Part shown: positions 17,217 through 36,996 of the stretch, one piece after another
Position numbering within the stretch: the first letter of the stretch is position 1
Layout of the letters: every line of letters begins with the position of its first letter
Origin: Sediminibacter sp. Hel_I_10
GTDB taxonomy: Bacteria; Bacteroidota; Bacteroidia; Flavobacteriales; Flavobacteriaceae
Direction of reading: 5' to 3'
Length of the DNA: 64,000 nucleotides
Assembly (NCBI RefSeq): GCF_000688335.1
Contig: NZ_JHZX01000001.1
Span: forward strand, 1,426,001-1,490,000
The notes under the pieces: model-generated
Databases searched by the model: none
Told to the model about the DNA's origin: nothing
What the model saw: only the letters and a program-made list of their open reading frames with translations
Made by a program: the position numbers and the translations under genes

Positions 17217-17669
17217 CTAATCCCTTCTCTTCGTATCAATAATAATAGTCACCGGACCATCATTTATCAACGACACTTTCATATCGGCTCCAAACTCTCC
17301 AGTTTGTATCACTTTACCCATATCTAATTCCAATTGCTTCACGAAAGCTTCATAAAGCGGAATGGCAACCTCTGGCTTGGCCGCTAAATTATAACTTGGG
17401 CGGTGACCTTTCCTGGTGTTTGCATGAAGGGTAAACTGACTCACGACAATTACATCGCCATTGTTTTGTTTAATGGAATGATTCATGACGTCTTGCTCAT
17501 CTGGAAAAATACGGCAATTGACAATTTTATTAGAAAGCCATTTAATGTCTTCGTCTTGGTCATCAGCAACAATACCCAACAGTATTAATAGACCTGATGC
17601 TATTTCTGCTACTTGCTTACCCTCGATAGTAACCGATGCTTTTGAAACTCGCTGAAGAACCGCTTTCAA
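17217..17669 (-). CDS. dtd: D-aminoacyl-tRNA deacylase
   Basis: Removes D-amino acids (and glycine) wrongly loaded onto tRNA. The two conserved motifs are present: VVSQFTL in the middle and NDGPVT near the C terminus. Length (150 aa) is normal. The start is TTG; translation from it gives the family-typical KAVLQRVSKASV start and no ATG is available upstream in frame. Confidence 0.95.
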   Translation of the reverse strand: MKAVLQRVSKASVTIEGKQVAEIASGLLILLGIVADDQDEDIKWLSNKIVNCRIFPDEQDVMNHSIKQNNGDVIVVSQFTLHANTRKGHRPSYNLAAKPEVAIPLYEAFVKQLELDMGKVIQTGEFGADMKVSLINDGPVTIIIDTKRRD

Positions 17670-17756
17670 TTGTATGTGTATTTATAAATTCAACCTTAAT
17701 AGCATCAAAAATAGAGATTTGATGTGGGCTCAACGTATGCCTCTAAAAAAATTTTC

Positions 17757-18707
17757 TTATTGTTCGTCCCAAATATCGGTTCGGTAGTGCTCGTCGTCTC
17801 CTTCAATAATCTGTAAATAGCTTTTATATCTAGAAAAAGCGATGTCATCTTTGTCTAAAGCTTCTTTTACAGCGCATTTGGGCTCTTCAATGTGTAAGCA
17901 ATTATTAAACTTACAGTCTTGTTTCAGCTCAAAAAATTCTGGGAAGTAATCACCTACTTCCTCCTTATCCATATCTACAACCCCAAACCCTTTGATGCCA
18001 GGAGTATCAATAATTTTAGCATCAAAGCTCAAATCGAACATTTCGGCAAAGGTAGTGGTATGCTGACCTTGGCTGTGCTGCTCAGAAATTTTCTTGGTTT
18101 TAAGATCCAAACTCGGTTCAATGGCATTGACCAATGTTGACTTCCCAACCCCAGAATGACCAGCAAACATACTGACCTTGTTGATCATTAAATTCTTGAC
18201 CTTATCTACATTTTTCCCTGTCTCTGCGGAAATACCAATACATTCATAACCAATCTTTCTATACACATGAGCCAAGTACCGAACTTCATTAAGTGTCTCA
18301 TCATCATAGGTATCGACCTTATTGAATAATAACACTGTTTTTATGCCATAAGCCTGAGCCGTAACCAAAAAACGATCAATAAATGTGGTAAGCGTTGGAG
18401 GATTATCTATGGTAACCAACAGAAAAACCTGATCGATATTGGACGCAATAATATGGGTTTGCTTAGATAGGTTAACCGATTTGCGAACAATGTAATTATG
18501 ACGATCATGGATATTGTGTATCACGCCAGTAACCTCATCATTAGTAGTCTCCAATTCAAAATCTACATGATCTCCTACCGCGATAGGATTGGTACTCTTA
18601 ATGCCTTTAAGACGAAATTTCCCTTTGATTCGGCATTGGTAAGTAGCACCAAGATCTGTCTTTACGGTGTACCAACTGCCTGTAGATTTATATATGGTTC
18701 CTGTCAT
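17757..18707 (-). CDS. rsgA: Ribosome small-subunit maturation GTPase RsgA
   Basis: Circularly permuted GTPase that checks late 30S assembly. The order OB-fold, then G4 (FNKVD), G5 (SAETGK), G1 (GHSGVGKST), then G3 (DTPGIKGFG) is diagnostic. The C-terminal zinc knuckle CKFNNCLHIEEPKC is complete. 316 aa. It is followed by dtd on the same strand. Confidence 0.95.
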   Translation of the reverse strand: MTGTIYKSTGSWYTVKTDLGATYQCRIKGKFRLKGIKSTNPIAVGDHVDFELETTNDEVTGVIHNIHDRHNYIVRKSVNLSKQTHIIASNIDQVFLLVTIDNPPTLTTFIDRFLVTAQAYGIKTVLLFNKVDTYDDETLNEVRYLAHVYRKIGYECIGISAETGKNVDKVKNLMINKVSMFAGHSGVGKSTLVNAIEPSLDLKTKKISEQHSQGQHTTTFAEMFDLSFDAKIIDTPGIKGFGVVDMDKEEVGDYFPEFFELKQDCKFNNCLHIEEPKCAVKEALDKDDIAFSRYKSYLQIIEGDDEHYRTDIWDEQ

Positions 18708-18787
18708 TCACATTGATTTCAGGCAAATTAACAACTTTTTTTTACAATGAAACAGCGATCTTTAAGTATAAATCAAAAGTAAAACCT

Positions 18788-19236
18788 ATGAAAACAGTTT
18801 TACTTTTGGCATTTTTGTTAGCCTCTACATTTATCATGAATGCCTAAGTGGGGCAAAAGGTCATCACTAGTGTAGCATCTATAGTTCCAAATGGACTTGG
18901 ACGTTCTAGATTGATCTCCTCTAATGAAACGCGGGATTACAAAGAATTCACTTCAGAACAAACAGAAGATGACAACACCCGAAACAAAGCAAATCGCAAT
19001 GAAATTAGGGTTAAAGATTTTTAAGAAACTAAACTTCTCAATTTCTATAACCTAGGAGGCATTAGGCTTCAAAACATTGTGGTCAATGAGGCCGTAATTC
19101 CATCAAAAATCAACACCTTATCTGAAAAGATTGGGAACTAGCTTTTGCAACTAGTGCTGTAAAAAATGATAGTGGAACAGACGATGGCCAAGGTCTTTTT
19201 ATCACACGCTATATTTTTAAACGTTCTAAACCTTAA
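18788..19236 (+). pseudogene. Degraded gene for a small secreted protein
   Basis: Reading from the ATG gives a signal peptide (MKTVLLLAFLLASTFIMNA) and then TAA at 18845-18847, exactly where Gln would follow the cleavage site (VGQKVITSV continues in frame). A second TAA at 19022-19024 interrupts KDF-ETKLLNFYNLGG. Near 19130 one base appears to be missing: the frame changes to read DWELAFATSAVKNDSG and ends TRYIFKRSKP at the final TAA. Both stops differ from CAA (Gln) by one base. The restored product would be about 148 aa and resembles, from memory, short flavobacterial secreted proteins ending in a Trp-containing strand and a basic tail. Function unknown. It overlaps the 3' end of the convergent gene by a few bases. 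Confidence 0.75.
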
Positions 19237-19880
19237 ATAACAATCGCCTTTTTCGAAGCGAGCCTATGACCATCTTGAAATATACTAATTAAGTATATTC
19301 CGGCTGGCTGAGCAGATAAGTCGACTAAAAAAGAAGGCTCCAACAATTCAAAATTGTTTTTGGAAATCACTTGACCTGATAAACTTGCCACTATAACCTG
19401 TAATTCTGAAAACTCATTTGGCATTGTTACACGAAACACACCAGTTTTTGATGGATTCGGAAAAAGTACGACGTCAATCAAGGCTACTTCTACATCATAA
19501 TTAATTGTTTCAGAAGAAACACCACAACCTGTTCTGTAACATAATAATTGACAGGATTTGGATTTTGAGCTATATCCATTGATAACCACTTCAGTCAAGG
19601 TCTCAAAGTCGTCTAAAACAATTTCTAAATTTCTAAGATTGTTTATAGCAACTTCTTTTGTGCCATAACCTAGATGAGACACAAGCAAGGTGTCTGTAGA
19701 TTTCAATTTGATTCTAAACTGACCATCTTCGTCAGAAACAGTTCCCTTATTAGAATGTTTGACTGCAATATTGGTGTAAGGCAAAGATCCTTCACTACTA
19801 TTTACTTGCCCCAAAAACTCATGTTGTGCAAAACTTAATGATGTGGAAATTAATAAGACTAAAATTAAAAACGGTTTCAT
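19233..19880 (-). CDS. Secreted protein with CarboxypepD-regulatory-like domain and T9SS-like C terminus
   Basis: The start is taken at the ATG of MKPFLILVLL, which gives a clean signal peptide ending at FAQ. Residues about 20-100 form a carboxypeptidase-regulatory-like beta sandwich (GQVNSSEGSLPYTNIAV, GTVSDEDGQFRIKL, LVSHLGYGTKEV), the domain also found at the N terminus of TonB-dependent receptors. A cysteine-rich linker (SCQLLCYRTGCG) leads to a C-terminal domain with FPNPSKTGVFRV and GIYLISIFQDG, typical of T9SS type A sorting. It is therefore probably a surface protein; its role is unknown. Confidence 0.75.
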   Translation of the reverse strand: MKPFLILVLLISTSLSFAQHEFLGQVNSSEGSLPYTNIAVKHSNKGTVSDEDGQFRIKLKSTDTLLVSHLGYGTKEVAINNLRNLEIVLDDFETLTEVVINGYSSKSKSCQLLCYRTGCGVSSETINYDVEVALIDVVLFPNPSKTGVFRVTMPNEFSELQVIVASLSGQVISKNNFELLEPSFLVDLSAQPAGIYLISIFQDGHRLASKKAIVI

Positions 19881-19973
19881 ATTTTCTAGGTGTTGATTAT
19901 GAATCAAACCTAAGCGAAAGAACCTTTATTTAAAACCAGAAATGAGCCAACAGGTATTCTCATTGAGTAAACT

Positions 19974-20001
19974 ATAAAAAAAGCCTCAAATCAATGAGGC
20001 T
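19974..20001 (-). terminator. Intrinsic terminator of the Phe/Tyr operon
   Basis: Stem AGCCTCA (19982-19988) with TGAGGCT (19995-20001) and a six-base loop; on the minus strand the stem is followed by a run of T residues (19975-19982). It lies 8 bases after the stop of the last gene of the operon. Confidence 0.9.
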
Positions 20002-20008
20002 CTTATAA

Positions 20009-21091
20009 TTATTTATTGATCACCTTCTCTTGATGATTTATAGATTCTTGGTGGATGGCCTTGAAGACTCTTAAGATAAATTCTTCACTCAGATTCTTTT
20101 CTTCTCCTTGTAAAATCATTTTACCCAAGATTTCATTCCATCGTTTTGTTTGTAATACCGCAACATTTTTAGATTTTTTAAGTGCTCCAATACTTTCTGC
20201 AACAGTCATACGCTTACCCAACATATCTATCAATTGATGGTCTATCACATCAATTTGTGTACGCATGGTATTCAATTTGTTATTAAACTCTGCACTTTCA
20301 GCCGTTTCCTTTCTAATCTTTAAATCCTTTGTGAACTGAATCAAGGTCTCTGGTGTGATCTGTTGCGCAGCATCACTCCAAGCATTATCTGGATCATAGT
20401 GCGTTTCTACCATTAGCCCATCATAATTTAAATCTAAGGCTGTTTGGCAAAGATCAAAAATAATGTCCCTGCGTCCTGCAATGTGCGAGGGGTCTAAAAT
20501 TAAAGGTAAATCTGGAAATCGATTTTGTAAATCTACAGCGATCTGCCATTCTGGATTGTTACGGTATCTGGTTTTTTCATAAGTAGAGAATCCTCTATGA
20601 ATCACCCCTAAATTTTTAACATCAGCAGTATAAAAACGTTCTACGGCCCCAAGCCAAAGTGCTAAATCTGGATTTACCGGATTTTTAATCAAGACAGTTT
20701 TATCAGTCCCTTTTAAAGCATCTGCAATGTCTTGAACTATAAAAGGACTTACGGTGGTGCGCGCACCGATCCATAAAATATCAATATCATGTTTGAGTGC
20801 CAAGTCCACATGATTTGCATTAGCAACCTCTGTGGTGGTCATCATTCCCGTTTCTTCTTTGGCCTTCTGCAACCATTTTAAACCAAGTGCACCAACACCC
20901 TCAAAGTTTCCTGGGCGCGTTCTTGGTTTCCAAATTCCTGCCCTTAAAACGGTAGCATCGCTATCCTTCAATTGGTGTGCAATTTTTAAAACCTGTGCTT
21001 CTGTCTCTGCACTACAAGGCCCGGCGATAACTAGAGGATGGTCTAATCCAAAATCATCTAACCATGTTCTCAATTCTTTCTTATTTTCCAT
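20009..21091 (-). CDS. aroF: Bifunctional 3-deoxy-7-phosphoheptulonate synthase / chorismate mutase
   Basis: Couples the first step of aromatic synthesis (PEP plus erythrose-4-phosphate to DAHP) to chorismate mutase (chorismate to prephenate). The N-terminal part (about 1-260) is a type I-beta DAHP synthase with VIAGPCSAE, KPRTRPGNFEG and LPLILDPSHIAGRRD. The C-terminal ~90 residues are an AroQ-type mutase helix bundle, from MRTQIDVIDHQLIDMLGKRM. Start chosen at the ATG of MENKKELRTW; a TTG nine codons upstream is less likely. Fourth and last gene of an operon controlled by an upstream attenuator. Confidence 0.93.
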   Translation of the reverse strand: MENKKELRTWLDDFGLDHPLVIAGPCSAETEAQVLKIAHQLKDSDATVLRAGIWKPRTRPGNFEGVGALGLKWLQKAKEETGMMTTTEVANANHVDLALKHDIDILWIGARTTVSPFIVQDIADALKGTDKTVLIKNPVNPDLALWLGAVERFYTADVKNLGVIHRGFSTYEKTRYRNNPEWQIAVDLQNRFPDLPLILDPSHIAGRRDIIFDLCQTALDLNYDGLMVETHYDPDNAWSDAAQQITPETLIQFTKDLKIRKETAESAEFNNKLNTMRTQIDVIDHQLIDMLGKRMTVAESIGALKKSKNVAVLQTKRWNEILGKMILQGEEKNLSEEFILRVFKAIHQESINHQEKVINK

Positions 21092-21178
21092 AAGCTCTTT
21101 TTTTAATTTCTTATTCAAAAACGGAATGCAATAGCCACATTTAGTTCAAGAATTTATTTCACTTTTCTATTTACTTAA

Positions 21179-22030
21179 TTATTGAATTCCCTTTAAAATA
21201 TCTTTGATATGGTTGGTGTTTTCCATCTCATTGTAGATTTGATCAAAATCATCGGCCTCCATATACCCTTTAAACCGTTTTAAGTTTGTGATATATTCAT
21301 CTAAGGTTTCAATCACGTTTTCACGATTTTGTTTAAAAATCGGAGTCCACATTGCTGGAGAACTTTTTGCCAATCTCACGGTACTCTCAAAACCACTGCC
21401 TGCCATGTCAAAGATGTCTCGCTCATTTTTTTCTTTTTCAATGACCGTTTTTCCTAACATAAATGCACTTATATGAGACAAATGAGAAACGTAGGCTATA
21501 TGCTTATCATGTGCTTCAGGGTTCATGTACCGAATACGCATCCCTAATTCTGAAAAAAGTTTCAACGCTTTTTCCTGTAACTTGAATGCCGTTTTTTCAA
21601 CCTCGCAAATGATGTTCGTTTTATTCTGAAACAAATTATTGATAGCTGCCTTTGGTCCTGAAAATTCGGTTCCTGCAATGGGGTGTGCCGCAAGAAAATT
21701 GCGCCTTCTTTCATGGTCCTTAATGGCATTGCATATTGGCAATTTTGTAGAACCCACGTCAATGATTAACGTATCATCATGTATGGCATCCAAGATTTTT
21801 GGCAACTCCACTATCGCAACATCTACAGGTACAGATAAAATAACGAAATCGGCATTTTTTAAATCTTCATAAGTAGCCGTTTTATCAATGATGTTAAGCT
21901 CTAAAGCCTCTTTTAAATGCGCATCATTGGTATCAATGCCATAAACTTGAGCACTGTTATTGTTCGCCTTAATATCTAAGGCCAAACTGCCGCCAATTAA
22001 TCCAATTCCTATTACGTAGATATTTTTCAT
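21179..22030 (-). CDS. tyrA: Prephenate dehydrogenase
   Basis: Oxidatively decarboxylates prephenate to 4-hydroxyphenylpyruvate for tyrosine. The N-terminal NAD-binding motif is GIGLIGGSLAL; AAHPIAGTEFSGP and HKHIAYVSHLSHISAF are substrate-binding segments. At 283 aa it consists of the catalytic domains only and has no ACT domain, so direct Tyr feedback through an ACT domain is not expected. The gap before it (22031-22074) holds one copy of the CTTCGGAAA motif. Confidence 0.92.
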   Translation of the reverse strand: MKNIYVIGIGLIGGSLALDIKANNNSAQVYGIDTNDAHLKEALELNIIDKTATYEDLKNADFVILSVPVDVAIVELPKILDAIHDDTLIIDVGSTKLPICNAIKDHERRRNFLAAHPIAGTEFSGPKAAINNLFQNKTNIICEVEKTAFKLQEKALKLFSELGMRIRYMNPEAHDKHIAYVSHLSHISAFMLGKTVIEKEKNERDIFDMAGSGFESTVRLAKSSPAMWTPIFKQNRENVIETLDEYITNLKRFKGYMEADDFDQIYNEMENTNHIKDILKGIQ

Positions 22031-22074
22031 CTTTATTTTCTTCGGAAAACTATAGTCTCCCGTTTAAATCTCTT

Positions 22075-23220
22075 TTATTTCAATCGTACTAAAGCTTCTT
22101 CTAGATCTTCGGTATTGGCGCAAAGGGAAATTCTAATATATCCTTTACCATTACTGCCAAAAACAGTCCCTGGAGTTATAAATACCGAGCGTTCTTTTAA
22201 AATCAAATCAATGTACTCTTCAGCTTGTACATACTCTGGCAGTTTTGCCCATACAAATAAGCCTGTTGCCTTTTCATCGTAAGTACAATTGAGCGTTTCT
22301 GCTATTTTCCATACAATTTTTCGGCGTTCCTCATACACGTTATTAAGGCTAGCAAACCAAATTTTTGAGCATTGTAAGGCCTCAATAGCTCCCTTTTGAA
22401 TGCCATAAAACATGCCAGAATCCATATTGCTCTTTACCTTTAATACCGCATCAATAAACTCATGCTTTCCTAGAACCATCCCTACGCGCCAACCTGCCAT
22501 ATTGAAGGTCTTACTTAAGGAATTTAACTCAAGACAAACGTCTTTTGCACCACCATATTTTAAGATGCTACGTGGGTTAGGATTGAGAATAAAGCTATAT
22601 GGATTGTCATTGACCAACAAAATATCATTACGCTTGGCAAAGGCAATCAAATCGTCAAACAATTTGGTAGTAGCTACCGCTCCTGTTGGCATGTGCGGAT
22701 AATTGATCCACATGACCTTGACCTTTTTTAAATCCATTTTCTCAAGAGCCAACAAATCGGGCTGCCAAGCATTAGCATCTGTCAAATCATAATACACCGG
22801 TTTTGCACCAACCAATTTGGTCACAGAAGCATAGGTAGGATACCCCGGATTGGGAATCAAGGCTTCATCACCCGGATTTAAAAATGCCATAGAAATATGC
22901 AAAATCCCTTCCTTGCTTCCCATTAAGGGCAGTACATTTGTCAAGGGACTTAAGTGCACATTAAAATTATCTCTATAAAACTGCGCCATAGCTTCACGCA
23001 GTTCTGGTATGCCTTGGTAACTTTGATATTTGTGTACTGCAGGGTTCTCAAAGGCCTCAACCATAGCGTTAAGCACTCGATCTGGTGGCTGTAAATCTGG
23101 ACTTCCAATTCCTAAGTTGATAATTGGACGACCTTGACCTTTCAGCATCGCGACCTCTCTCAATTTTTTTGAGAAATAATATTCTTCTACATTTTGTAAA
23201 CGGTCTGCAACCTGTATCAT
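22075..23220 (-). CDS. PLP-dependent aminotransferase of the aromatic pathway
   Basis: Fold type I aminotransferase (381 aa). The PLP lysine is in SLSKTFNMAGWRVG; NPGYPTYASVTKL and MWINYPHMPTGAV are cofactor-binding segments. It overlaps pheA by 4 bases and precedes tyrA, so it most likely converts phenylpyruvate and 4-hydroxyphenylpyruvate to Phe and Tyr. By sequence it belongs near aspartate/LL-diaminopimelate aminotransferases, and the substrate is inferred from context only. Confidence 0.85.
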   Translation of the reverse strand: MIQVADRLQNVEEYYFSKKLREVAMLKGQGRPIINLGIGSPDLQPPDRVLNAMVEAFENPAVHKYQSYQGIPELREAMAQFYRDNFNVHLSPLTNVLPLMGSKEGILHISMAFLNPGDEALIPNPGYPTYASVTKLVGAKPVYYDLTDANAWQPDLLALEKMDLKKVKVMWINYPHMPTGAVATTKLFDDLIAFAKRNDILLVNDNPYSFILNPNPRSILKYGGAKDVCLELNSLSKTFNMAGWRVGMVLGKHEFIDAVLKVKSNMDSGMFYGIQKGAIEALQCSKIWFASLNNVYEERRKIVWKIAETLNCTYDEKATGLFVWAKLPEYVQAEEYIDLILKERSVFITPGTVFGSNGKGYIRISLCANTEDLEEALVRLK

Positions 23221-24101
23221 AAACTTGCGCTTTTATAGGCTCCCAATATCTTAAAATCAGTGGCCATTAGGGTTACAATTGATTTTGCCTTTTCGAAATC
23301 TGCAATATTGTCAAAAGTAACATCAACAAAGAACGCATATTTCCAAGGAGTCTCTATTTTTGGTAGGGATTGTATTTTAGTTAAATTCAACTTACAATCA
23401 CTTAATACGTTTAAGATTGCGGCTAAACTTCCGCGTTTATGATCCAGTTCAAACTTTAAAGAGGCTTTATTAATGTCATTTTGGGACACCTCGGCATCTT
23501 GACGTTTCACAACCACAAAACGGGTTTCGTTGGTTTTGATGGTTTGAATGCTTTCTGCTAAGATTTCTAGTTCGAAAATTTCCGAAGCCAAACGTGATGC
23601 AATTGCCGCTACCTGCGTTAATTTTTGACTTTGGATACGTTGTGCCACTTCTGCTGTATCTTTATCTTCAATAAGCTTGATGTGCGGATGGTTTTTAAAA
23701 AACGCTTTACACTGCAACAAGGCCATGGGATGTGAATAGACCTCCGTTATATCTGTAATCTTCTGATGAGGCAACGCCATTAAATGATGTTGGATATCTA
23801 AATAATACTCGCCAACAATTTGCAAATTATGATCATTGATCAATGCATAGTTTGGGATAATGGAGCCTGCAATAGAATTCTCTAAAGCAATAATGGCAAC
23901 ATCGCACTGCTTTTTCAAAAGAGCCTCTATGGTGCTATCAAAAGACAAACATTCTATGATTTTAACATCGGCGTCAAAATAGTGTTGCGACACTATATGA
24001 TGAAAAGATCCCTTGATCCCCTGTATGGCGACTGCGGTTGACAAATGCATCTTGCTTTGTTTTGCACTGTTATCTTCTGGCACTTTTAAGGTTGACTCCA
24101 T
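23217..24101 (-). CDS. pheA: Prephenate dehydratase
   Basis: Converts prephenate to phenylpyruvate. The catalytic domain begins at AVAIQGIKGSFHHI and includes ALENSIAGSI and NETRFVVV (the Thr-Arg-Phe motif). A C-terminal ACT domain follows (about 210-290, KRGSLAAILNVL). The two phenylalanine-binding motifs of this domain differ from the usual GALV and ESRP: here GSLA and QSLP. Two starts are possible, the ATG used here and one 17 codons later (MHLSTAVAIQG); the second fits the family better but the first is closer to the leader structure. First structural gene after the attenuator. Confidence 0.92.
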   Translation of the reverse strand: MESTLKVPEDNSAKQSKMHLSTAVAIQGIKGSFHHIVSQHYFDADVKIIECLSFDSTIEALLKKQCDVAIIALENSIAGSIIPNYALINDHNLQIVGEYYLDIQHHLMALPHQKITDITEVYSHPMALLQCKAFFKNHPHIKLIEDKDTAEVAQRIQSQKLTQVAAIASRLASEIFELEILAESIQTIKTNETRFVVVKRQDAEVSQNDINKASLKFELDHKRGSLAAILNVLSDCKLNLTKIQSLPKIETPWKYAFFVDVTFDNIADFEKAKSIVTLMATDFKILGAYKSASL

Positions 24102-24130
24102 AAATTTATGCTAAGGTCTTAGTTGGCATT

Positions 24131-24170
24131 AAAAAAATACAAAAAAAAAGTCCCGATGGATATCGAGACT
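24131..24170 (-). terminator. Attenuator terminator in the pheA leader
   Basis: On the minus strand AGTCTCGAT (24170-24162) pairs with ATCGGGACT (24157-24149) with one mismatch and a four-base loop, followed by a run of T residues down to about 24131. It lies between the leader peptide and pheA, so it would stop transcription before the operon. Its first arm contains GTCTCG (24169-24164), complementary to CGAGAC at 24211-24206 inside the leader reading frame, which gives the alternative antiterminator. Confidence 0.85.
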
Positions 24171-24192
24171 TCTATTATATACGTTTTGCAAA

Positions 24193-24270
24193 CTATACAC
24201 AGAGGGTCTCGTTCCTTTTGCTAAAAAAGAAATAAAACCAATTGTAATATAGTGCGCTATTCAAATTCAT
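24193..24270 (-). CDS. Aromatic leader peptide of the pheA operon (25 codons)
   Basis: A short reading frame ATG...TAG upstream of pheA with eight aromatic residues among codons 8-16: YYNWFYFFF (four Phe, three Tyr, one Trp). The tail SKRNETLCV follows. Codons 20-22 (AAC GAG ACC) contain CGAGAC, which can pair with the first arm of the downstream terminator; neighbouring GGA (24215-24213) can add pairs with TCC (24160-24158). A ribosome stalled at the aromatic codons would leave this segment free and allow the antiterminator; a ribosome at the stop codon, which lies close downstream, would mask it and allow termination. This is the classical design for sensing charged tRNA-Phe and tRNA-Tyr. 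No Shine-Dalgarno sequence is obvious, as usual in this group. Confidence 0.85.
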   Translation of the reverse strand: MNLNSALYYNWFYFFFSKRNETLCV

Positions 24271-24377
24271 AACTATAATCGAATTGCTAATGTAACCATA
24301 TTTTCTTCAAATCAAAATTGTGAACGCCTTTTTTTAAAGAATTACCGCTTCTAGAAAGTATCGGTTTGATTTATTGC

Positions 24378-24385
24378 TATTTTTG
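24378..24385 (+). promoter_or_regulatory. Candidate -7 promoter element for gldA
   Basis: TATTTTTG matches TAnnTTTG and ends 16 bases before the gldA ATG. No TTG -33 element is found at the expected 19-base spacing, so this is tentative. Confidence 0.4.
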
Positions 24386-24401
24386 AACAAAGCAATGAAG
24401 C

Positions 24402-25328
24402 ATGTCTATTGAAGTAGAAAACATATCTAAGCATTACGGTGAGCAACGCGCTCTTGACGGCGTCTCTTTTTCTGTCAAAAAAGGGGAAATCGTTGGTTTT
24501 TTGGGCCCTAATGGCGCTGGCAAGTCAACACTCATGAAAATTTTGACTACGTACATCAACGCTTCAGAAGGCAAGGCTTTGGTTAACGGCTGTAATGTTA
24601 TCTCTCAAAAAAAAGAGGTGCAGTTGAGTGTGGGATATTTGCCAGAACACAACCCACTTTATTTAGACATGTACGTAAGAGAGTATCTCAACTTTAATAG
24701 AGGGATCTTCAATACGTCGAAAGCGCGTGTAGATGAGGTTATTGTACTTACAGGCTTACAACCAGAAGCGCATAAAAAAATTGGCCAACTCTCTAAAGGA
24801 TATAGACAGCGTGTGGGACTCGCCAATGCGCTTTTACACAATCCTGATGTTCTTATTTTAGATGAACCCACAACGGGATTAGATCCAAATCAATTGGTAG
24901 ATATTCGGCATTTGATCAAAACAGTTGGTAAAGACAAGACGGTATTTCTGTCTACGCATATTATGCAAGAGGTAGAAGCTATTTGTGACCGAGTGATCAT
25001 CATTAATAAAGGACAGATTGTAGCCGATAAGAAGCTCAAAGATCTTCGTGACGATAAAGTGCAAACCGTTATTGTAGAATTTGATTACCGTGTAGAAGAT
25101 ACATTTTTACTGAAATTACCGAATGCTACAACCGTCAAAAACACCCACGACTTCGTTTATGAAATCACCTTTGCAACAACGTCTGACATGCGCTCGCACG
25201 TGTTTGATTTTGCTCACGACAACCAGCTCAAGATCTTACAACTCAACCAAAAGAATGCAAGTTTAGAAAGTTTATTTAGGGAATTGACAAGCACAACTAA
25301 TCAAACCCAAAAAGAAGCTACCGAATAA
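24402..25328 (+). CDS. gldA: Gliding-motility ABC transporter ATP-binding protein GldA
   Basis: ATP-binding subunit (308 aa) of the GldAFG transporter needed for gliding in Flavobacterium. It has the Walker A motif GPNGAGKST, the signature LSKGYRQRVGLA, Walker B VLILDEPTTGLDPNQ and the switch His in FLSTHIMQE. The C-terminal ~90 residues are the extra domain seen in GldA. The membrane partners gldF and gldG are not next to it, and the neighbour is convergent. The call separates GldA from other ABC ATPases by its start (VENISKHYGEQRALDGVSF) and overall length. Confidence 0.85.
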   Translation: MSIEVENISKHYGEQRALDGVSFSVKKGEIVGFLGPNGAGKSTLMKILTTYINASEGKALVNGCNVISQKKEVQLSVGYLPEHNPLYLDMYVREYLNFNRGIFNTSKARVDEVIVLTGLQPEAHKKIGQLSKGYRQRVGLANALLHNPDVLILDEPTTGLDPNQLVDIRHLIKTVGKDKTVFLSTHIMQEVEAICDRVIIINKGQIVADKKLKDLRDDKVQTVIVEFDYRVEDTFLLKLPNATTVKNTHDFVYEITFATTSDMRSHVFDFAHDNQLKILQLNQKNASLESLFRELTSTTNQTQKEATE

Positions 25329-25341
25329 CCAGGGTAAGAGT

Positions 25342-26094
25342 TTAGTCTTCGAAAATTAATTGCCCCGTATAAAATGCCTCGACCTCAACAATTGGCGGAG
25401 TATTCACTAGAATCACATCACCTGTACTTCTAATTTCTCCAGTTAAACTTTGTTGGGCATTGATGATCATATCATTGCTGCTTCTATGAAAGATATCTAC
25501 ATTTTGTGCTATAAAATCTCTGCCCTCAAAACGGGCATCACCAGAAAAGAACCCTAAAAAAACAGAGTTGGCCTGACCTTTAATAAAGGTAGTTGACAGG
25601 TTGTTGACTACAACTTGAAATTGATCACAATCAATTTCAACATTAAAATCACCGTCGGTATGAAACTCATCTTCCCCACTAGCATCTTCGGAAATCAATC
25701 GAAGCGAGGGATAGCTTAACACACCTTGACTTTGCATCATAAGACCAGAGCTGTTTCTTATTTCAGTAAGATTTGGAGCGCTAACATATACTTTTGTAAG
25801 ACCGTAATCTCTTGTAAGATTACAAGCATTATTATTATATAATTTAAGACGGCCGTCTTCTACCAAAACCTCTACATCATTCATCAAAAACTCCCCGGTT
25901 TGAACGGTCACCTTCTGGGTTGGCGCATCGGTTACAAATAGTTGCATCCGCTCAAAGACCGTAATCTCAGTAAATGGAGCAACTTCAAAATCTTTTTCAA
26001 TGACATCTCCAGCGTTTTGAAAACAATCGGGTACATGCTCTCCATTGCATGACAACAAGACCAAAAACAAGACAGAACAAAATAACTTTTTCAT
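25342..26094 (-). CDS. Lipoprotein with head-GIN (DUF2807-like) domain
   Basis: Signal peptide with lipobox VLLSC (Cys16), then a repetitive right-handed beta structure of the head-GIN type, seen in FEVAPFTEITVFERMQLFV, YVSAPNLTEIRNSSG and further turns rich in Asn and Asp. Such proteins are common in Bacteroidota and have been proposed as adhesive or envelope components. The start overlaps the stop of the upstream PagL-like gene by 4 bases, so the two are translationally coupled. Confidence 0.75.
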   Translation of the reverse strand: MKKLFCSVLFLVLLSCNGEHVPDCFQNAGDVIEKDFEVAPFTEITVFERMQLFVTDAPTQKVTVQTGEFLMNDVEVLVEDGRLKLYNNNACNLTRDYGLTKVYVSAPNLTEIRNSSGLMMQSQGVLSYPSLRLISEDASGEDEFHTDGDFNVEIDCDQFQVVVNNLSTTFIKGQANSVFLGFFSGDARFEGRDFIAQNVDIFHRSSNDMIINAQQSLTGEIRSTGDVILVNTPPIVEVEAFYTGQLIFED

Positions 26095-36653: not shown

Positions 36654-36773
36654 TTTTCTAAGTTTTTGAGTTAATAAAGATTAAAACAAAAGACAATAAG
36701 CTTCTCCTGAAGCATACTTAATAGAAAAATGTTATAAAGAAGATGGCAATTACAGATGGGTAATTACGCTTAG
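36654..36773 (-). promoter_or_regulatory. Expression platform between SAM-I aptamer and metY
   Basis: A hairpin GCTTC (36713-36709) with GAAGC (36704-36700), loop AGGA, extended by weaker pairs and followed by a T-rich stretch on the minus strand (about 36698-36680), could be a regulated terminator. No long uninterrupted T run is present, so the mechanism is uncertain. Confidence 0.4.
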
Positions 36774-36896
36774 GTTATCTATCTTAACGTTCGATAAATG
36801 AATCGAAATCGTTAGTAGAATTTAGCACCTTCATTGATAAATTCAAAGGGTTGCTAAGGCTTCAACGGGTCTAATCCCTCCGCCTTTCTTGATAAC
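36774..36896 (-). promoter_or_regulatory. SAM-I riboswitch (S-box)
   Basis: The minus strand carries the S-box core in order: P1 strand GTTATC (36896-36891), AAGAAAGGCGGAGGGA, then CCCGTTGAAGCC, TAGCAACC, later AAGGTGCTAAATTC, and the closing P1 strand GATAAC (36779-36774). These match the conserved internal loops and kink-turn of SAM-I aptamers. It is 120 bases upstream of metY and heads the seven-gene methionine operon that ends with metF. Confidence 0.93.
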
Positions 36897-36996
36897 ATTT
36901 CAGTAAGTGTTTGAACTTTGTGAATACAAATATTGCAAATGAAAATTTAGAATTCCAAATTTATCGGGATCTTTTTACGGATTTCTTTTTAAGAAA

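Follow-up and report, generated by a model that had tools for sequence, protein, structure and literature searches.

The pheA locus

The window analysed here, by which we mean the whole stretch of 64,000 nucleotides, belongs to a 4.1 Mb genome and carries on its minus strand an operon led by pheA (Table 1). Domain matches assign its genes to the biosynthesis of Phe and Tyr, the amino acids that we propose are sensed upstream. Direct reading of the letters on that strand gives the order promoter-like box, 25-codon leader, intrinsic terminator, pheA. The order of genes past pheA differs among relatives, and five loci of family f39 contain the DAHP synthase fusion and, over the stretch examined, no match to an aminotransferase. 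In many relatives (L003, L007, L010, L014 and others) there is no in-frame ATG and pheA seems to begin with TTG (LIKTVAIQG); the PheA ORF of the window is about 19 residues longer at its N terminus than in such relatives. An ABC transporter ATP-binding gene (24402-25328, plus strand), which we take to be gldA, is divergent from the operon, as it is in 28 of the 29 relatives L002 to L030.

Table 1. Features of the pheA operon and its leader, in window coordinates.
Feature	Position	Strand	Basis or remark
Predicted promoter: TTG 24315-24313, 18-base spacer, TACATTAG 24294-24287	24287..24315	-	Consensus match in relatives
Leader ORF MNLNSALYYNWFYFFFSKRNETLCV	24193..24270	-	25 codons, ATG start; read directly
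Control codons 8-16 (YYNWFYFFF)	24223..24249	-	Double as 5' side of the 1:2 hairpin
Segment 2 (CGAGAC), codons 20-22	24206..24211	-	Letters, pairing counts, swap test
1:2 protector hairpin	24192..24253	-	Fold, -18.0 kcal/mol; pair counts; synonymous-codon test
2:3 antiterminator hairpin	24164..24211	-	Fold, -15.2 kcal/mol; pair counts; swap test
A/U-rich inner stem of the 2:3 antiterminator	24203-24171	-	Fold
3:4 intrinsic terminator stem, segment 3 GTCTCG at 24169-24164; arms AGTCTCGAT 24170-24162 and ATCGGGACT 24157-24149	24147..24172	-	Fold, terminator-like site listing, pair counts
Terminator T tract, nine T	24141..24149	-	Read directly
pheA, prephenate dehydratase	23217..24101	-	Pfam PDT 3e-55; ACT match under its cut-off
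Class I/II aminotransferase	22075..23220	-	4-base overlap with pheA
tyrA, prephenate dehydrogenase	21179..22030	-	NCBIfam NF006307 above cut-off
DAHP synthase / chorismate mutase fusion	20009..21118	-	Pfam DAHP_synth_1 and CM_2
Terminator-like hairpin directly past the last gene, likely operon end	19979..20004	-	Terminator-like site listing

A preliminary description of this region had proposed a trp/phe-type attenuator before pheA. The leader ORF and aromatic run, both terminator arms, the T tract and the complementary hexamers of segments 2 and 3 that it listed all proved exact on direct reading. Its extension of the antiterminator by a GGA/TCC pairing was rejected on the evidence of the fold and of loop conservation: the TCC lies in the unconserved loop of the terminator, and the fold extends the pairing inward, joining UCUGUGUAUAGUUU with AAACGUAUAUAAUAGA. 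It listed neither the 1:2 hairpin nor the promoter-like sequence treated below.

The leader RNA (24131-24274) folds more stably than dinucleotide shuffles of itself (z -5.83, equalled by 0 of 200). An intrinsic terminator stands between the leader and the first gene. Ten terminator-like sites were listed in 17500-25500, where shuffles average 5.4 sites, and none of the other nine has as many pairs as this one (12). Searching Rfam 15 gave no family at gathering score on the leader; the sole match of that level anywhere in the window, at 36772-36898 (minus strand, 73.6 bits), is to a SAM riboswitch aptamer.

A transcription start downstream of 24170 would speak against attenuation. The promoter-like sequence lies instead upstream of the leader, with its TACATTAG box beginning 24 bases ahead of the leader ATG, and the start is expected near 24283, about 13 bases 5' of that ATG. 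The consensus scored (TTG, an 18-base spacer and TAC[TAC]TTAG) is of the Bacteroidota type. Across the family TAC[TAC]TTAG is the best box at 82/125 loci, the spacing is 18 at 72/125, and a consensus score of 8 or 9 out of 9 is reached at 93/125 loci vs 270/2500 shuffles. The box starts 24-27 bases 5' of the ATG at 62/125 loci, so that its placement is not uniform across the set.

Conservation within Flavobacteriaceae

PheA was present in 136 of 149 genomes of the family, of which 130 loci were examined first and the other six later. A leader was called where an upstream ORF held at least six aromatic residues in nine codons. This rule was passed by 124/130 loci and by all six later ones, vs 1/130 on the reverse strand and 94/2600 dinucleotide shuffles, and the aromatic leader is therefore not a product of chance. 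Inspection added one locus with five aromatic residues in nine (L112) and one whose leader lies further upstream (L030, seen as L240), bringing the total to 132/136. Every one of the 125 leaders in the first set of 130 loci has an in-frame ATG, and a terminator follows 124 of them vs 18/1250 shuffles of the same stretches, the one leader with no terminator detected being L062. Leader and terminator thus occur together in 131 of the 136 PheA-bearing family genomes examined. PheA has no findable leader in the remaining 4/136 (L100, L105, L122 and L111, the last with only 373 bases upstream). Among 80 Flavobacteriaceae-type loci from named records, a set overlapping the family sample, 77 have leader and terminator; the three misses are two loci with fewer than 140 upstream bases (L250 and L286) and one (L316) that is the same record as genome G012.

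In G012 (L240 203-280, L030) about 550 bases separate the leader stop from the PheA match, and two near-identical short ORFs (VKRSFY.FEERNKIN) occur upstream of PheA. The arrangement suggests that DNA was inserted between the switch and the operon.

Codon content of the leaders

The predicted leader ORF carries codons for the products of the operon that it precedes. In the 12-codon aromatic windows of the 125 leaders, the Phe codons TTT/TTC number 634 and the Leu codons TTA/TTG 3, with 399 TAT/TAC and 87 TGG. Codons for both Phe and Tyr occur in 125/125 leaders of the family and in 39/39 leaders outside it. The preliminary description had the operon sensed jointly for Phe, Tyr and, through one codon, Trp; joint sensing of Phe and Tyr fits these counts, and the Trp part is doubtful. 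Trp codons are present in 86/125 leaders of the family and 9/39 outside it, and their absence from 39/125 and 30/39 weakens Trp as a third required signal, as does the pairing of the UGG bases inside the 1:2 hairpin in the window.

Pairing and co-variation of the leader segments

Three helices can be drawn in the leader. In the 1:2 hairpin the control codons pair with segment 2, and the bases preceding the run form a lower stem with the bases up to the stop codon. The 2:3 and 3:4 hairpins are the antiterminator and the terminator. Pairs were counted in an alignment (A1) of 57 leaders, chosen for their similar type from the 124 that have terminators. Paired cells made up 88.8% of 1:2 (44-64% when the helix was slid), 84.6% of 2:3 (31-46% slid) and 98.8% of 3:4 (16-51% slid), figures biased towards these helices in that the pairs came from recurring single-sequence folds of the same alignment and checked by the slid versions. 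RNAalifold on A1 recovered just short parts of 1:2 and 2:3.

Two-sided changes occur at 12 of the 27 pairs of the 1:2 hairpin, where 0/500 shuffles gave as many, and none of the 500 equalled any of the five measures observed. The native codons also give a more stable hairpin within the ORF than synonymous variants do (mean z -1.4; 42/124 loci under 0.05). These results support a 1:2 hairpin of control codons with segment 2, and so the protector helix expected of an attenuator in its untranslated state. Pairing in this hairpin may account for the frequent conservation of Asn, Trp and the C-terminal Leu-Tyr-Val.

The 2:3 core and the terminator arms are nearly invariant within the clade of 57. 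Two-sided changes in 2:3 were not commoner there than in slid versions (8 pairs and 13 cells vs 7-9 and 12-22), and these counts were reached by 31 and 12 of 500 shuffles; 3:4 has one pair with such changes, matched by 45/500 shuffles. With arms that scarcely vary inside the clade, support for 2:3 stands on wider swap tests. These were run free of alignment because a MAFFT alignment of all 124 leaders failed to line up segment 2 of one main type with that of the other. Segment 2 tracks segment 3 through its changes (CGAGAC/GTCTCG, CGGGACT/AGTCCCG, AAGGCT/AGCCTT, CCGGGTT/AACCCGG). The mean score of own arms was 17.39 at the 124 family loci, vs a maximum of 15.39 in 5000 permutations, and 19.93 vs 17.44 (5000 permutations) at 36 loci outside the family; swap and shuffle tests alike ignore relatedness, for which a version with one locus per family (15 loci, 19.23 vs a maximum of 18.1 in 5000 permutations) corrects in part. 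Taken locus by locus, 62/124 outdo 95% of shuffles of their own leader. The antiterminator is mutually exclusive with the terminator, and its pairing is conserved by the swap tests.

The inner stem of the antiterminator was seen again in single-sequence folds of relatives, and part of it could serve as an additional pause hairpin.

A model for the control of the operon

Folds were simulated with a ribosome footprint imposed, its size being our choice. With the RNA cut right after segment 3, the 1:2 hairpin forms when no ribosome is present, 2:3 forms with the A site at any of seven stall codons (8, 9 or 12-16), and neither forms with a ribosome at the stop. At full length the terminator forms in all ribosome states tried, and the switch would therefore need to be kinetic, with the outcome decided while the polymerase sits between segments 3 and 4. 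In enterobacterial attenuators the outcome is likewise set with the polymerase at this point.

We propose that RNA polymerase would begin at the start predicted above. Were charged Phe or Tyr tRNA scarce, the leading ribosome would stall in codons 8-16, covering segment 1 and leaving segment 2 free to pair with segment 3 (CGAGAC with GTCTCG); no terminator would then form, and pheA, the aminotransferase, tyrA and DAHPS/CM would be transcribed. With Phe and Tyr both plentiful, a ribosome at the stop codon would hide segment 2, and the 3:4 terminator would end transcription. If the leader were untranslated, the 1:2 hairpin would sequester segment 2, again with termination.

The reading that we favour for this locus, with a probability of roughly 0.93, is a trp/phe-type attenuator of transcription mediated by the ribosome. 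Comparison across genomes supports it through coding constraint on the aromatic run, three mutually exclusive helices, a promoter-like box and a terminator; from these we infer stalling, termination and read-through in the cell. The operon would most likely be read when Phe or Tyr runs short. The preliminary description, which proposed looking in relatives for conserved aromatic runs and covarying arms, is borne out on both, and its analogy with the trp and phe attenuators is supported.

Alternative explanations

Part of this evidence would also be expected if the sensor were the peptide and not tRNA charging. In TnaC a nascent peptide arrests the ribosome in response to Trp, and an aromatic nascent peptide could similarly arrest it here on sensing free Phe or Tyr. 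Such a system would have the same output structure, and the run is strongly conserved, but F and Y interchange within it and its length and order differ among lineages. The conserved N, W and C-terminal LYV codons sit in the 1:2 hairpin, and selection on codons and RNA therefore fits better than a peptide motif. We regard a nascent-peptide sensor as very improbable.

The ORF would be incidental if a ligand-binding RNA or a protein controlled the terminator, given that 2:3 and 3:4 alone could make a switch and that a leader with no Rfam family at gathering score leaves room for an undescribed aptamer. This is hard to reconcile with the excess of Phe over Leu codons (634 to 3), with an in-frame ATG in 125/125 leaders and with a stop positioned where a ribosome would mask segment 2, and we give it even less credence than the peptide sensor. 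As little weight falls on a constitutive terminator that simply lowers expression of the operon, with no switch. The terminator does form in all full-length states tried, but the co-variation of segments 2 and 3 and the 1:2 hairpin would have no reason if nothing were switched. Nor does the terminator end an upstream operon, since the upstream gene is divergent.

Spread beyond the family

In a class-level sample of 247 genomes PheA was present in 74. Of these, 65 belong to other families, and 61 of the 65 were examined after excluding four partial or weak matches. The leader rule was passed at 39/61 loci, vs 1/61 reversed and 15/1220 shuffles, and 36 of the 39 leaders have a terminator, vs 9/390 shuffles. 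Leader and terminator are thus found at 36/61 loci, in 15/25 families. Two loci (L161 and L171) fall just short of the rule, with five aromatic residues in nine and a terminator. No leader was found by this approach in the eight loci of family f13, or in 3/6 loci of f16. Three named records of gut Bacteroidales (Parabacteroides distasonis, Bacteroides finegoldii and Phocaeicola massiliensis) also pass the leader rule, with a terminator that was identified by eye. Three PLSDB ‘plasmid’ records of Bacteroidales (NZ_OY725761.1, NZ_OY725947.1 and OY726023.1) contain the pheA operon, and may be parts of chromosomes that were deposited as plasmids.

A covariance model (R1) was run against 60 genomes, and the best 28 hits (E up to 2.4e-6) were considered, hits near 1e-6 and weaker not being trustworthy in A+T-rich DNA. 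Of these 28, 26 are positioned before pheA. A hit on contig 240 of G395 stops where the contig does and is accompanied by a leader, a terminator and a gldA-like neighbour, while a hit in G039, a genome with no PheA match, and a weaker second hit in G050 have no aromatic leader. No strong, checkable hit in the 60 genomes precedes a gene other than pheA. The search also located the upstream leader of G012 that the rule had missed.

Other candidate leaders in the same genome

Two further candidates lie outside the window. A candidate histidine leader, MTFIQNHHHFHSGNQAS, stands upstream of hisG and is followed by a terminator (L207 1176-1289); a search of the genome for a His-codon pattern found no leader, and this one was found via HisG instead. 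A candidate tryptophan leader, MQKQLNHTWWWSKRKSFLVN, stands upstream of a chorismate-binding trpE-like gene (L210, about 650-790), its terminator read by eye. No leader was seen in this genome before ilvD or two other chorismate-binding genes. Leader attenuation thus seems to serve three or more amino acid operons in this genome.

Implications

If the leader acts as proposed, it would show cleanly, and over a wide range of Bacteroidota that takes in gut Bacteroides and Parabacteroides, how translation can control transcription. In its classic form the mechanism requires a ribosome close behind RNA polymerase, and the pheA leader would offer a ready test of such coupling in a phylum that initiates translation without Shine-Dalgarno pairing. 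It would also give a way to study how marine and gut bacteria are supplied with aromatic amino acids, and it is a candidate new RNA family.

More tentatively, at a little under even odds, a single ancestral Phe/Tyr attenuator may have persisted in front of pheA across much of the class Bacteroidia, together with leaders for his and trp, in bacteria whose ribosomes scarcely use Shine-Dalgarno pairing. Were this so, the leading ribosome and RNA polymerase would be tightly coupled throughout the group, and nearly the entire leader ORF would fold as one hairpin, both sensing and timing the polymerase.

Comparison with known systems

A survey by Vitreschak and others in 2004 reportedly listed candidate attenuators in some Bacteroidetes/Chlorobi, likewise of the leader-peptide type and with phenylalanine as one of the amino acids concerned. 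In Flavobacterium psychrophilum, and also in other genera of Flavobacteriaceae, a 2021 study described a conserved, structured 5' element ahead of pheA; its relevant passages give no Rfam hit for the element and mention clues that point to attenuation by leader peptides ahead of amino acid operons (PMC9723704). Leaders of this kind are thus fairly called little described in the group, as the preliminary description had it, and not undescribed. Family and gene are the same as here; the leader sequence, helices, co-variation and spread beyond the family are given here and not in the passages concerned of that main text (PMC9723704). Leader-like short ORFs are reported for Bacteroides thetaiotaomicron, with pheA not named in the part of the text that treats them (PMC7366714). 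In the relevant passages of a 2010 paper, the authors wrote that, setting aside the atypical ermC leader and their own Firmicutes case, they knew of leader peptide systems demonstrated in no groups but Proteobacteria and Actinobacteria (PMC2965389), and his attenuation is named only for enterobacteria in the corresponding part of PMC8305728. Among the matches listed in a literature search that mostly left aside subscription papers and supplements, there was no account of the pheA leader sequence, its helices or its class-wide spread.

The enterobacterial pheA and trp attenuators consist of a leader peptide with control codons, 1:2, 2:3 and 3:4 helices and a T tract ahead of a biosynthetic operon, and all of these are shared with the locus analysed here. 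In contrast to them, Phe and Tyr codons are mixed here, both occurring in every leader found, and the operon spans Phe, Tyr and a first enzyme of the common pathway. The control codons themselves lie within the 1:2 stem, the promoter box is of Bacteroidota type, and there is no Rfam match. The pheA leader is a well-supported candidate for a newly described instance of a long-known mechanism, widely retained in Bacteroidia.
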